From a virus: 64,000 nt of DNA. Positions within the stretch are counted from its first letter, which is position 1. Every line of letters starts with the position of its first letter. Shown here piece by piece: positions 46,127-57,178 of this stretch. Location: the IMG/VR virus record IMGVR_UViG_3300047469_000054, positions 1 through 64,000 of that record; one strand, 5' to 3'. Below the pieces are notes generated by a model. It saw only the letters and a program-made list of their open reading frames with translations, searched no databases and had not been told where the DNA came from. Position numbers and translations under genes: made by a program.

Positions 46127-48097
46127 TTGAAAACGCATCGTGCTTATTCGCTGCTTTCCGTAAATAACGTTGTAAAGGCCGTAAAGGCCGGTAGCGATAC
46201 CGAACAGCGCATTATTTCCGGCATTGCAACGACTCCGACGCCTGACCGCGTTGGGGATATTATCGATCCGGCTGGCGTTTCTTTCAATAATCCTCTCCCG
46301 CTTCTTTGGCAGCATATGCATTCCATGCCAGTTGGTACCGTTGTTTTCGGCAAGGCTACCGATAAGGGAATTCCTTTTACTGCTACTCTTCCTGTTGTTG
46401 AGGAAGAGGGAAATTTGAAGCAGCGGGTTGATGAAGCTTGGCAGAGCGTCAAATTAGGTCTTGTACGGGCTGTATCAATTGGGTTTCGACCCATTGAATT
46501 TAGCTTTCTCGATAGCGGAGGCGTCCGTTTTACGGAGACTGAAGTTTTCGAATTGTCTCTGGTAACTGTTCCTGCAAATGCAGAGGCTACCATTGACGTT
46601 GTAAAAAGCATTGACGCAAAGGTAATTGTTGCCGCTAGCGGAGCAAAGAGCGTTAAGGCAAAAGAGGTTACGAAGTCTGGACGCGTTGTCTTGACGAAAA
46701 GCAAGGAGAATAAATTGGACTACGCCAAACAGATCGCAGAATTCCTGGAAACCAAGGCTGCAAAGATTGAGGCTGCAAACGCCCTTCTTGAAAAGTCTGC
46801 TTCCGCAACTCTAACCGATGAAGATTCGGCAGAGTACGACAATCTCAATGTTGAGATTGACTCCATTGACGCACATGTGAAGCGTCTTGAACAGGCGCAG
46901 GCTCGTTCTAAGGCTTCCGCTGTTGCCGTCGATACTACTAAGACCGCTGCTGCTGCTGCTGCTGCCCGCGCTGGCGTCCATGCCGTCGCTAAGGCTCCCA
47001 AGCTGGAAAAGGGTATCGAGTTCGCACAGTTCGCCATCTGCCTTGGTGCGGCTAAGGGTAGCCTACTCCAGGCTCGCGAAATCGCGCAGACTCGTTTCGT
47101 AGGCAATGCTGACCTGAATGTGGCGATTAAGGCTGCCGTTGCTGCCGGTACTACCACGGACGCCACTTGGGCCGCCCCTCTCGTTGACACCTATCAGCGC
47201 TTTGCTGGTGATTTCATCGAGTTCCTTCGTCCGCAGACCATTCTTGGTAAGTTCGGAACGGCTGGCATTCCTTCGCTGCGTCGCGTTCCGTTCAATATCG
47301 AAGTTGCTGGCCAGACTTCTGGCGGTAATGGTTACTGGGTCGGTGAAGGCAAGCCGAAGCCGCTGACCAAGTTCGATTACGCTAACGTTACGTTGCGTTG
47401 GGCCAAGGTCGCAAACATCGCCGTTCTGACTGAAGAGCTTCTTCGGTTCTCCAATCCTTCGGCAGAAGCACTGGTTCGCGACTCGCTGGCTGCCGCTCTG
47501 ATTGAGCGCCTGGACATCGACTTTATCAATCCTGCCAAGGCAGCCGTTGCTAACGTGTCTCCGGCTTCGATCACCAACGGCGTTGTTGGTATCCCGTCGT
47601 CTGGCAATGATGCTGCCGCCGTTCGCAATGATATTGCCGCCGTATTTGGCGCCTATATTGCCGCGAACATGACGCCTACTTCTGGCGTCTGGATTATGCA
47701 GGCTACCACTGCCCTGGCTCTGTCTCTTATGCAGAACCCGCTTGGCCAGTCTGAGTTCCCCGGCATCGGTATGAATGGCGGTACGCTGTTTGGCCTTCCT
47801 GTCATTGTTTCGCAGTATGTTGCCGCTGGCAACGTTATTCTGGCGAATGCTCAGGACATCTTTTTGGCTGACGATGGTCAGATCATGATTGATGCCTCGC
47901 GTGAAGCGTCGCTTCAGATGGATAATGCGCCTGCAACTCAGGACGCAACGACCGGCGCAGGCATCGAGCTTGTTTCGATGTTCCAGACCAATAGCGTTGC
48001 TATCCGCGCTGAACGCTGGATTAACTGGCAGAAGCGCCGCGCTGGTGCCGTCGTTCTTCTTACTGGCGTTGCCTGGGGCCAGCCTGAAACCCCGTAA
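46127..48097 (+). CDS. Prohead protease fused to HK97-type major capsid protein
   Basis: 656 residues. A TAG stands directly before the TTG start, so this rare start (AAAAGGA upstream) is the only one. Residues 20-165 are the U35/S78 protease: LLWQHMHSMPVG (His near 62) and RAVSIGF (Ser near 117), then FELSLVTVPANAEA. Residues 205-275 are a delta-like scaffold coiled coil. From about 300 on is the HK97-fold capsid (VDTYQRFAGDFIEFLRPQTI, LRRVPFNIEV, ALIERLDIDFINP). One polyprotein thus yields protease, scaffold and shell. Confidence 0.92.
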   Translation: MKTHRAYSLLSVNNVVKAVKAGSDTEQRIISGIATTPTPDRVGDIIDPAGVSFNNPLPLLWQHMHSMPVGTVVFGKATDKGIPFTATLPVVEEEGNLKQRVDEAWQSVKLGLVRAVSIGFRPIEFSFLDSGGVRFTETEVFELSLVTVPANAEATIDVVKSIDAKVIVAASGAKSVKAKEVTKSGRVVLTKSKENKLDYAKQIAEFLETKAAKIEAANALLEKSASATLTDEDSAEYDNLNVEIDSIDAHVKRLEQAQARSKASAVAVDTTKTAAAAAAARAGVHAVAKAPKLEKGIEFAQFAICLGAAKGSLLQAREIAQTRFVGNADLNVAIKAAVAAGTTTDATWAAPLVDTYQRFAGDFIEFLRPQTILGKFGTAGIPSLRRVPFNIEVAGQTSGGNGYWVGEGKPKPLTKFDYANVTLRWAKVANIAVLTEELLRFSNPSAEALVRDSLAAALIERLDIDFINPAKAAVANVSPASITNGVVGIPSSGNDAAAVRNDIAAVFGAYIAANMTPTSGVWIMQATTALALSLMQNPLGQSEFPGIGMNGGTLFGLPVIVSQYVAAGNVILANAQDIFLADDGQIMIDASREASLQMDNAPATQDATTGAGIELVSMFQTNSVAIRAERWINWQKRRAGAVVLLTGVAWGQPETP

Positions 48098-49770: not shown

Positions 49771-49830
49771 GTAAGAATGTTTAGCCATTTATTAATCGCG
49801 CTTATGCGCCAACACATGAGGACGATGTAA

Positions 49831-51819
49831 ATGGCTAAACCAGTAACGACAAGATTCGGAAATTTCGTTGTAAAGCTTGGAAACGACGCTGTGCCGATTG
49901 TGTATTCGGCGCCATGCGGCTTTACCTCTAAATCATTGCAGCTTACAAAAGACTTGACAGAGGTTAATATTCCAGACTGCGACAATCCCGATTCTGTGGC
50001 GTGGATCGGGAGAGACGCGGCTAGTTTGTCTGCGCAAGTAAGCGGAGACGGAATTCTGGCCTCAGAATCCGTCGATATCTGGCTTGACGCTTGGGAAAAC
50101 TCGAATTCAGTTCCAATTGAGATTTCCGTGGCCTTTCCATCAAAAACCATTGTGTGGACCGGATATGCGCAAGTTTCGGAGCTAACGATATCGGCAGAGC
50201 AGGGCGGTCGCGTGACAATTAGCGTTACTCTGATGAGTGACGGTGAATTGACCCGTGTAAGCAATGAGACTCTTGTAACCGTATTGGCGCATAAGGTGTA
50301 TGGTCCTGGTTACAATAGCGGCGCAGCTCCACTTACCGGGGACGGCTCAGCTAAGGGCTACAATGTCATTCTTACGAATGAAACTGGAGCGCCGATTACG
50401 ACGGCGTCTATTGCCCTCCAGGGCTGGACATTGACATTAGCAGGAACGACTGACACGGGGAATAGCTTTAGCGTAATCTCAAATGTGGAGTATCCAGTCG
50501 GAACTATAAGCGCTGTCTTCCCCACCACGGTTGTTCCTAGTGGGCAGAATGTTGCTACGGCTCCGATCCCGCTAACCACGCCGATTCCGATTGGCGGCGC
50601 CTTTAGGGTAACTCTTGTCAGCACTCCAGCAAATGGACAAAAATACATTGCTAATATTGGCTTTGCTGGCTTGCGCTCGCATGTGAATATTAGCAAAGCC
50701 GCCAGCGTTCGCCTTATGGGTGTTGGTGACAGTATTATGACCAATAACGGTAGCGCTGTATATAATGCGGCAACTGGAAAGTGCCCCGCATATATAAATA
50801 GTATAATCGGAGCTACCGCAAAATCATACGGAGATAATTCTGCTCAATATTTCGCTAGACAGGCTGATCTAGCCTCATTGCTTGGTATAACTCATATTAT
50901 ATCAAATTTTGGAACAAATGATTTTGGATCATCCGACACTGTGGCGAATCTAAAGACTTATCTAGGAAATATGCGTGACGCCGCTAGGGGCAAGGGAGTC
51001 GCTTTTGTTCAGGCGACAATCCTTCCCAGGACAAATCTCAATGTTTCCGATAACAGGATAACGGCCACGTCCGTTACCGGTTCAGGGACAACCATTAACG
51101 CAGTAGTTCCGGATGCAAGCAAGTTCACCGTTGGTCATCCATACTTCTTTGCGGGCGCTACTCCAGCCGCGTATAACGACATAAAGATATGTACCGCCAT
51201 CAACACTACTACGAACACTGTATCATTCAAGTTCGCAGGATCGGGCACGAGTCCGGCAACCGGAACAATAACAATTGCGCCGACATATGTGACGCAGAGC
51301 GTTGGTTTCATGACGCCATTTAATTCATATTATACGGCTGGTATCGCATCTCCTCGCGGTCAAATAAATGCTTGGATACGAAGTGGGGTATTCGATGGAT
51401 ATATTGATTGGGCCGATGCTGTCGAGCCGACGCGAGATAGCGGTCGCTGGAAGGTATCTGGTGAAGACGCGCTATTGCCAGCAACGCAAACCGTAACTGT
51501 GTCCGCCGTAGTTAGTACTACTGTGTTCACGTCAGATTACAATCGTGGCGTCGGCACAATGGCGTCAGGCCTTGTGCAGCCAATCACCGGCGCCAACGCT
51601 GGTCAGGTGGCTGGAGCAACGGGAAACACATCAACCAATATCACCTTGCTTGCTGCGTTCTCTGCCGCTCAGGCTATAGGAGATACATATTATTGCGTCC
51701 CTAAGCCATTCTATATGTCGGCAGATGGTGCGCATCCCGCCGCTAGTGTGGGCGGCAAGGGAGGGCAAATTCACATAGACAATGCAACCTTGTCCTGGAT
51801 TAACGCGGCGCTAGCTTGA
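49831..51819 (+). CDS. Tail-tube-like domain fused to SGNH hydrolase
   Basis: 662 residues. Residues 1-145 are a near-copy of the tail-tube protein at 56732 (both begin MAKPVT-RFGNF-VKLGNDA; about four of five positions agree by eye). Residues 150-290 are a beta-rich linker domain. From about 295: GVGDSIMTNNGS (Ser near 301), ISNFGTNDFG (Asn near 365), an inserted beta domain (about 410-490) and SADGAHPA (Asp/His near 631-634), the SGNH residues. It can be expected to co-assemble into the tail tube and display an esterase. Lies between capsid and portal, not in the tail block. Confidence 0.85.
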   Translation: MAKPVTTRFGNFVVKLGNDAVPIVYSAPCGFTSKSLQLTKDLTEVNIPDCDNPDSVAWIGRDAASLSAQVSGDGILASESVDIWLDAWENSNSVPIEISVAFPSKTIVWTGYAQVSELTISAEQGGRVTISVTLMSDGELTRVSNETLVTVLAHKVYGPGYNSGAAPLTGDGSAKGYNVILTNETGAPITTASIALQGWTLTLAGTTDTGNSFSVISNVEYPVGTISAVFPTTVVPSGQNVATAPIPLTTPIPIGGAFRVTLVSTPANGQKYIANIGFAGLRSHVNISKAASVRLMGVGDSIMTNNGSAVYNAATGKCPAYINSIIGATAKSYGDNSAQYFARQADLASLLGITHIISNFGTNDFGSSDTVANLKTYLGNMRDAARGKGVAFVQATILPRTNLNVSDNRITATSVTGSGTTINAVVPDASKFTVGHPYFFAGATPAAYNDIKICTAINTTTNTVSFKFAGSGTSPATGTITIAPTYVTQSVGFMTPFNSYYTAGIASPRGQINAWIRSGVFDGYIDWADAVEPTRDSGRWKVSGEDALLPATQTVTVSAVVSTTVFTSDYNRGVGTMASGLVQPITGANAGQVAGATGNTSTNITLLAAFSAAQAIGDTYYCVPKPFYMSADGAHPAASVGGKGGQIHIDNATLSWINAALA

Positions 51820-51980: not shown

Positions 51981-53360
51981 ATGAAGAAAACAACTGGCCT
52001 CATTGGTCGTTTTAAAAAGGCGTGGGGAACACTACTTTCGCCAAGCTCTACGGGCGGATGGTGGCCGGTGGTCAAGGAAGCATTCGGCGGCGCTTGGCAA
52101 AACAATATTGAAATTAGGAATGATCAAATCACGGCTTATCACGCTGTGTTTGCTTGCGTCACATTGATCGCATCAGATATTTCCAAGCTTGGAATTGATC
52201 TTATTCAGAAGTCTGGCGGCGCTTGGGTGCCAACAACGAATAACGCCTACTCTCCAGTTCTTAGAAAACCCAATAAGAACCAATCTAGAATTCAATTTAT
52301 TGAAAATTGGATGCTTTCAAAGCTGTTGACTGGAAACACTTATGTCCTGAAGATTAGGGACGGGCGGGGAGTAGTGACCGGACTCAAGATTCTTGACCCC
52401 ATCAATACGAAGCCATTGATTTCTCCAGATGGAAGTGTTTTCTACTCAACGTCGGAAGATAATTTCAATGGTCTGACGAGTGGTGATGTTGGCGAGGCTT
52501 TCCCCGCCAGCGAGATCATTCATGATAGATTCAATTGCATGTTTCATCCTCTTATCGGCGTGTCTCCTCTTTATGCATGTGGACTTGCCGCAATGCAGGG
52601 ATATTACATTCAAACAAGCCAAACTAAATTGTTTGAAAATGGCGTACAGGCTCCGGGCATCTTGACCGCTCCTGGCGCCATTGGCGACGCGACGGCGGCT
52701 AGGCTAAAGGCGCATTGGGAAGAGAACTATACCGGTGAAAAAAACTATGGTAAGGTTGCCGTATTGGGCGATGGGCTTAAGTTCGAAAAAATGTCCATGA
52801 CGGCGGCAGATTCGCAGCTTATCGAGCAATTGCGCTGGACGGCTGAAGTTATTTGTTCTGTTTTTCACGTTCCTCCATACATGATCGGCGTTGGCGAAGC
52901 GCCGCCATATACCAATATTCAATCTGTTAATATGCAATACTATACTCAGGCATTGCAGAATCCAATTGAATCCATTGAGCTTTGCCTTGATGAGGGGCTT
53001 AACCTGCCTTCAGATATTGGCGTGCAGATGGACATTGATGGCCTATTGCGCATGGATGAGCAGACGCGCTCAACTACGTTGACCAATTATTCCAAGGCTG
53101 GCGTTTTGAAATTGAATGAAGTTCGTAATAAGATTGGATATCAGAACATGGTAGGTGGTAATTCTGCCTTCCTTCAGCAACAGAACTTTAGCGTTACGGC
53201 CTTGGCTAAGCGCGATGCCGGTGCCGATCCATTCGCTACAGCGCCAGCACAGCCAGTGCCATCTACGGATACAAACGACAATGGCGACAATCAAGATGCA
53301 GCAAAGCTTTTTGAGCATATGTCAAAGTCTATCAAGGAAGGAATTCGCTTTGAAATTTGA
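51981..53360 (+). CDS. Portal protein (HK97 family)
   Basis: 459 residues, AAAGGAGA site. ITAYHAVFACVTLIASDISK (about 50-69), LLTGNTYVLKIRDGRG, GVSPLYACGLAAMQGYY, FHVPPYMIGVGE and LTNYSKAGVLKLNEVR are the standard portal landmarks. Forms the dodecameric DNA gate at one capsid vertex. It normally precedes the protease/capsid genes; here it follows them and two hydrolase genes. Confidence 0.92.
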   Translation: MKKTTGLIGRFKKAWGTLLSPSSTGGWWPVVKEAFGGAWQNNIEIRNDQITAYHAVFACVTLIASDISKLGIDLIQKSGGAWVPTTNNAYSPVLRKPNKNQSRIQFIENWMLSKLLTGNTYVLKIRDGRGVVTGLKILDPINTKPLISPDGSVFYSTSEDNFNGLTSGDVGEAFPASEIIHDRFNCMFHPLIGVSPLYACGLAAMQGYYIQTSQTKLFENGVQAPGILTAPGAIGDATAARLKAHWEENYTGEKNYGKVAVLGDGLKFEKMSMTAADSQLIEQLRWTAEVICSVFHVPPYMIGVGEAPPYTNIQSVNMQYYTQALQNPIESIELCLDEGLNLPSDIGVQMDIDGLLRMDEQTRSTTLTNYSKAGVLKLNEVRNKIGYQNMVGGNSAFLQQQNFSVTALAKRDAGADPFATAPAQPVPSTDTNDNGDNQDAAKLFEHMSKSIKEGIRFEI

Positions 53361-56644: not shown

Positions 56645-56731
56645 CAACTACTGTATTTTTCATCAAAGATGTTGATGTTTGGCAATCATTTTGCAAGTTA
56701 TCAACAGTGCACACACAAAAGGAGAATATGA

Positions 56732-57178
56732 ATGGCAAAGCCAGTAACAGCCCGTTTTGGCAATTTTACGGTTAAGCTTGGCAACGATGCCGACCCAATC
56801 GTTTATGTCGCGCCTTGCGGCTTCACTTCCAAATCGCTACAGCTTACCAAGGATCTAACGGAGGTTAACATCCCCGATTGCGACGACCCGGATGCAGTAT
56901 CGTGGGTAGGCCGTGATGCGGCGAGTCTTTCTGCTCAGGTTACTGGCGATGGCGTGCTAGCTTCCGAGTCTGTCGATACTTGGCTTGAGGCCTGGGAAAA
57001 CGTCGAGAGCGTTCCGATTCAGATTTCGATTGTCTTTCCGGCCAAGACTATTACTTGGACAGGCTTCGCTCAGGTGTCTGAGCTTACGATTGCCGCAGAA
57101 CAGGGTGGCCGCGTGACTATTTCCACGACTATCCAGTCAGACGGCGAGCTTGTTCGCGTTACGACTCCGACGCCATAA
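56732..57178 (+). CDS. Major tail tube protein
   Basis: 148 residues, AAAGGAGA site. Canonical position between tail terminator and chaperone. Beta-rich; GFTSKSLQLTKDLTEVNIP, ESVDTWLEAWENVESVP and AEQGGRVTISTTIQSDGEL fit phage tail-tube proteins. An extended near-copy fused to an SGNH hydrolase lies at 49831. Confidence 0.9.
   Translation: MAKPVTARFGNFTVKLGNDADPIVYVAPCGFTSKSLQLTKDLTEVNIPDCDDPDAVSWVGRDAASLSAQVTGDGVLASESVDTWLEAWENVESVPIQISIVFPAKTITWTGFAQVSELTIAAEQGGRVTISTTIQSDGELVRVTTPTP

Follow-up and report, generated by a model that had tools for sequence, protein, structure and literature searches.

Why should a virus that keeps an ordinary tail-tube gene also carry, among its head genes, a tube domain joined to an SGNH esterase? 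The question is raised by IMG/VR record IMGVR_UViG_3300047469_000054 (66,915 bases), a virus with relatives among the phages of root-nodule bacteria, of which positions 1–64 000 were analysed (these 64 000 nt are called the window below). The first-pass annotation of this DNA had described one gene product of 662 residues as a duplicated tail-tube protein fused to an SGNH hydrolase, and had proposed that such monomers co-polymerise into the tail and place an esterase on its side.

The structural genes follow the order terminase, protease–capsid fusion, a 114-aa protein, SGNH1 (a separate second esterase gene), the tube–SGNH fusion, portal, collagen-like protein, connectors, major tail protein, chaperone and tape measure (coordinates are given in Table 1). 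The ordinary tube gene is flanked by tail-completion and assembly-chaperone/tape-measure genes. The fusion gene is sited in the head module, away from the tail genes and 4.9 kb before the tube gene. SGNH1, directly upstream of the fusion gene, has full catalytic blocks of its own (GDSLTFG, GLND and DGTH), and its position and sequence are conserved in RHph_X2_26; phage P106B likewise has two adjacent esterase genes, gp13 and gp14. Two further genes of this region are conserved in relatives: the collagen-like repeat protein that follows the portal gene (at about 53 377–54 846) is kept at 30–48% identity, its RHph_X2_26 counterpart being annotated as a putative portal protein, and a GNAT-type acetyltransferase gene within the tail cluster (61 247–61 687) is kept in RHph_X2_26 and in contigs L016 and L030 (33–67% identity).

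Table 1. Features of the fusion gene, its neighbours and the ordinary tube gene (positions in the window)
Feature	Positions	Strand	Basis
Protease–capsid fusion, left border of the accessory slot	46127–48097	+	PHROG 617, E = 3.4e-161
SGNH1, separate second SGNH esterase gene, 403 aa	48521–49732	+	PHROG 8480, E = 2.7e-38; same position and 47% identity in RHph_X2_26
Weak ribosome-binding site of the fusion gene, GAGGA	49818–49822	+	Duplex energy -5.6 kcal/mol
Tube–SGNH fusion gene, 662 aa	49831–51819	+	Single ORF, ATG start
Tail-tube domain, aa 1–145, paralogue of the major tail protein at 56732	49831–50265	+	81% identity; PF06199; AF2 fold
SGNH module, N-terminal beta-rich part, aa 148–~290	50272–50700	+	Homologous across 14 sequences; beta strands in AF2 model
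SGNH hydrolase domain with beta insertions, aa ~291–662	50701–51816	+	VIA-align to 9kr1 and 7toh
SGNH block I, GDS, aa 299–301	50725–50733	+	Invariant in 14 sequences
SGNH block II candidate, glycine G327	50809–50811	+	Invariant in 14 sequences; block II assignment by position
SGNH block III, GTND, aa 361–364	50911–50922	+	Invariant in 14 sequences
SGNH block V, DGAH, aa 632–635	51724–51735	+	D632 and H635 invariant; relatives have DGTH or DGLH
Portal protein, right border of the accessory slot	51981–53360	+	PF04860, E = 1e-81
Strong ribosome-binding site of the tube gene, AAGGAG	56719–56724	+	Duplex energy -9.3 kcal/mol
Ordinary major tail (tube) protein, 148 aa	56732–57178	+	PF06199, E = 1.9e-18; PHROG 1407

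All 662 codons of the fusion gene are open, without a stop or frameshift, and its 68-kDa product has only two matches in the whole 66.9-kb record: itself and the ordinary tube protein. The two parts meet without a linker: the tube domain runs to about residue 145, and LAHxxYGPGYN, the conserved opening of the SGNH module, begins at about residue 152.

Out of the 145 residues of the fused tube domain, 118 (81%) are identical to those of the virus's own tube protein; at the DNA level 296 out of 435 nucleotides are (68%). The differences are concentrated at third codon positions (28, 17 and 94 at positions 1, 2 and 3, respectively), and 73 of the differing codons are silent while 27 change the residue. 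Four-fold sites are saturated, with 44 out of 61 differing (72%; ∼75% is expected at random). Neutral drift simulated at K = 1 per site left ∼17% residue identity (26% at most in 500 simulations). The fused domain also keeps 26 of the 27 columns that are invariant in 30 ordinary tube proteins (the exception is P146, at the junction). Because the silent sites are saturated while 81% of the residues and nearly all invariant positions are kept, the fused tube domain is, judging by its substitution pattern, under long-term selection, which agrees with the earlier suggestion that the copies had drifted chiefly at silent sites. Saturation also rules out a recent duplication or gene conversion, and identical DNA stretches shared by the two copies are all shorter than 11 nt, so that the gene can be explained neither as a fresh duplicate nor as an assembly chimera driven by repeats.

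Where the tube copy came from was addressed by phylogeny. The fused copy is sister to the virus's own tube protein (support 100/83), with a branch length of 0.25 versus 0.054 for the latter; 17 residue changes are placed on the fused branch and four on the tube branch, and seven are unassigned. The next-best identity of the fused domain to any tube protein is 69%. Copying of the tube gene within its own genome is favoured by these comparisons, but favoured rather than proven: topologies that place the own tube protein with other contigs and leave the fused copy outside that group are not rejected by AU tests (p 0.20–0.44). The same tests are what can be said for another origin, namely capture of the tube half from the tube gene of a different phage of the same clade, in which case part of the silent-site constraint would date from selection on an ordinary tube gene, and the joining of the two halves may be too young to have come under selection itself. 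We consider capture unlikely, given that the own tube protein is the most identical one, that the pair is well supported and that 17 of the 21 assignable changes fall on the fused branch. The mechanism proposed below could be identical under either origin.

The fold of the N-terminal part agrees with its sequence. The fused tube domain matches PF06199 with 63.1 bits (cut-off 23.8; aa 9–142, E = 3.7e-17) and PHROGs 13196 and 1407. Its AF2 model, for which phage-collection rows were left out of the prediction input, has a mean pLDDT of 70.9; in VIA-align comparisons the best match is the tube of the gene transfer agent (GTA; 6toa; Z 11.8 over 114 residues at 2.8 Å), and further tail tubes follow (monocin, Z 10.4; lambda gpV, 8iyk, Z 10.2; SPP1, 6yeg, Z 9.4), together with connector and baseplate entries. 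The structure prediction proposed in the first-pass annotation as a check thus returned a tube fold, with the family-invariant residues in place. The C-terminus of the model aligns with residue 159 of lambda gpV, whose external Ig domain starts at residue 157 (PMC8718954), so the fusion point corresponds to the site at which known extensions exit the tube. The AF2 model of the full-length fusion lacked alignment depth for its tube portion (pLDDT <50 there) and does not predict how the two halves are placed relative to each other.

The C-terminal part folds as an SGNH esterase. The closest structures to the module found with VIA-align are a polyvinyl-alcohol esterase (9kr1; Z 21.0, 307 residues aligned at 4.2 Å) and the carbohydrate (acetyl-xylan) esterase PbeAcXE (7toh; Z 20.6), both covering about residues 142–662, and many further SGNH enzymes match at Z 12–15. 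The full set of catalytic blocks reported at first sight (GDS, GTND and DGAH) is present, with the catalytic positions invariant in 14 sequences. The Pfam profile PF13472 stays below its threshold on this half (18.1 bits versus a cut-off of 32.9, E = 0.004), which is not decisive because the large insertions probably break the profile match; a sequence search of solved structures returned nothing meaningful. With 118 of 145 residues shared with the tube protein on one side and an SGNH fold at Z of about 21 on the other, the description of the gene as a tube duplicate fused to an SGNH hydrolase stands. One of the beta insertions (residues ∼485–640, at 51 283–51 750) matches virion proteins of the GTA (6tba) and of the baseplate–tail complex of phage R4C (8gtc) at 1.8–1.9 Å over ∼80 residues, which hints that the esterase module shares a domain with tail-tip proteins.

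Relatives of the SGNH module (46–56% identity) are found in P106B, phiM6, RHph_TM16 and about ten viral contigs. The tube domain is present in only one out of the 14 esterase sequences, the fusion itself; the other family members start with short leaders (roughly 15–55 residues) that are unlike one another, so that the tube domain stands in place of another N-terminal module. (Tubes and esterases were aligned separately, as a mixed MAFFT alignment misaligned them.) From these sequences the esterase half is best described as mobile phage cargo with variable, unrelated N-terminal leaders. We infer that the leaders are anchors and that the tube domain took over this role here.

The gap between capsid and portal, where the fusion gene is found, varies in content among more distant relatives. 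In several contigs (L030:2872-4992, L098:4738-9933, L103:6250-9977, L112:9003-9905 and L113:9000-9950) it holds genes that look, judged by eye, like glycosyltransferases and methyltransferases, perhaps serving virion glycosylation. A different arrangement is seen in L016, whose tube protein is among those closest to the window's own: a 574-aa tailspike-like ORF (L016:8191-9915) lies just upstream of the tube gene, where other relatives have nothing. In RHph_X2_26 (from Sinorhizobium americanum), the nearest isolated relative by terminase, the order is terminase, capsid, a small gene, SGNH1 and portal, and the fusion gene is absent.

The fusion is known from one virus record. A search for the same fusion in related phages, which had been suggested as a check, found none: no other locus among 164 of the tube family (including overlapping pieces of one contig, so that distinct contigs are fewer) has an extension of more than five residues past the tube domain or two whole tubes, and whole-record searches of 31 relatives gave no further fusion. 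In two scans of 84 980 species genomes neither the esterase module nor the fused tube domain had any relative, although these scans rest on short peptide patterns and absence there is therefore weak evidence.

The reading that we prefer, with a probability of roughly 0.6, is that the gene encodes a minor, armed tube subunit, derived by joining a copy of the tube gene to an SGNH cargo, whose esterase projects off the tail. The joining would have taken place in the capsid–portal slot, the partner of the copied major tail-tube gene being an SGNH carbohydrate esterase that phages carry as cargo. Residues 1–145 would pack into the hexameric rings of the tube, replacing ordinary subunits or mixed with them, and the 53-kDa esterase would jut from the tube exterior, in the manner of lambda gpV's Ig domain and of TpeX in lactococcal 936 phages. 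Since the ordinary tube gene persists and its ribosome-binding site is the stronger of the two, armed subunits would make up a minority of the tube; the weaker site of the fusion gene fits a sub-stoichiometric product, although such a score says little about real yield. Full occupancy may even be impossible with six 53-kDa domains per ring. Promoter and terminator scans around the fusion gene gave signals at shuffle level only. The more specific picture of a mosaic tube, in which two genes supply subunits, ordinary and esterase-bearing, that polymerise together, so that the shaft as well as the tip modifies the host's polysaccharide coat, has in our view an even chance of being right.

Rhizobia produce acylated surface polysaccharides. 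SGNH tail fibres, including proteins of Klebsiella prophages, are active esterases acting on acetyl esters, and G7C gp63.1 is an SGNH enzyme that removes an O-acetyl group from lipopolysaccharide (PMC13123978). By analogy with such fibres, and because the likely hosts' polysaccharides are acylated, O-deacylase is the likeliest activity of the esterase half. The enzyme would take O-acyl groups (most likely acetyl or succinyl) off the host surface polysaccharide, and a tail lying in the slime layer would thereby make many weak contacts and strip its surroundings locally. Incorporation into the tube, outward projection, minor stoichiometry, activity and substrate are all properties that we infer for the fusion protein.

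The arrangement could also be put to a narrower use. The fused protein may sit at one site (the terminator side, the first baseplate ring or the collar) instead of being scattered along the shaft, its tube domain acting as a site-specific adaptor that holds the esterase in about six copies. The connector and baseplate entries among the matches of the tube-domain model are in keeping with this, as is the faster evolution of the fused copy, which would be expected if one of its faces meets a new partner. The 26 out of 27 invariant positions kept and the 81% identity, however, fit interchangeable packing better than a new interface, and we regard a special ring as rather improbable. Lower still do we rank a function outside the virion, whether as a free enzyme that lysis sets loose or, through the tube domain, as a poison for the tails of related phages infecting the same cell. 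The gene does lie in the head region beside another SGNH gene, and its esterase relatives have no tube domain (a literature search found no virion location for them), but a soluble enzyme needs no tube domain and yet the sequence of this domain was kept across saturated silent sites, whereas a tail poison would hit the phage's own tail too, its subunit being 81% identical. That the gene is an assembly chimera or a functionless relic is very improbable: it is known from a single record and from no other searched, but the open frame of 662 codons and the lack of any shared run of at least 11 nt between the copies rule out a chimera, and the intact catalytic residues and constrained tube residues speak against a relic.

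A minor armed tube subunit, as preferred here, can be compared with several known systems. Lactococcal 936 phages produce, through a frameshift, a long form of the tube protein whose carbohydrate-binding extension, TpeX, attaches to host cells (PMC6669499). Like the fusion, MTP-TpeX is a tube protein with a large C-terminal extension, which in the 936 phages is made as a portion of the tube protein and decorates the tail (PMC6669499); unlike it, TpeX results from programmed frameshifting of one gene and carries a BppA-like carbohydrate-binding module, whereas here a separate paralogous gene carries an SGNH esterase. In SPP1, plain and extended tube forms (gp17.1 and gp17.1*) are likewise reported to arise in one phage by frameshift (PMC6669499; the original paper is cited in PMC8718954), and gp17.1* differs from the fusion in being the product of one gene, with an adhesin-type domain of ∼100 residues and no enzyme. 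Lambda gpV, T5 pb6 and YSD1_22 have an Ig-like C-terminal domain that exits the tube and protrudes outside (PMC8718954); the gpV extension leaves at a position matching the fusion point, but in these three proteins the domain is on every subunit, Ig-like and non-enzymatic, and no second tube gene is reported there. The SGNH fibres and spikes (G7C gp63.1 and the Klebsiella prophage proteins) share with the fusion an SGNH enzyme serving receptor binding on the virion, mounted on a fibre or spike and not in the tube. Finally, P106B gp14, phiM6 gp9 and RHph_TM16 EVB27_041 are similar over the whole 515-aa esterase module (46–56% identity), but have a short N-terminal leader and no tube domain.

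The fusion thus differs from the frameshift-made tube extensions in being an independent gene in a single frame, and its extension, folding as an SGNH esterase, is not an Ig/FN3 or BppA-like binding domain; it would work like the decorated tubes while standing outside the frameshift-made class. The first-pass annotation knew of tail tubes with added Ig-like domains but of no SGNH-armed tube paralogue. A literature search without many subscription papers turned up no published case of a tube protein bearing an enzyme, or of a second tube gene put to such use; minor tube forms with projecting host-binding extensions are already known, however (936 TpeX and SPP1), so that the fusion is a variant of a known design and not one without precedent.

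The fusion probably lets the phage mount an enzyme along its tail, which, if true, would be a new way of arming it. Should the fused protein indeed be part of the tube, duplicating the building block of the tail shaft and equipping the copy with an enzyme would be a way for phages to arm the shaft; the known tail decorations (Ig domains and the carbohydrate-binding TpeX) would be extended to catalysis, and the locus would be a natural case of enzymes shown at variable density on a phage tail. It would also show in a concrete case how mobile esterase cargo, whose leaders vary, gains a new virion anchor.
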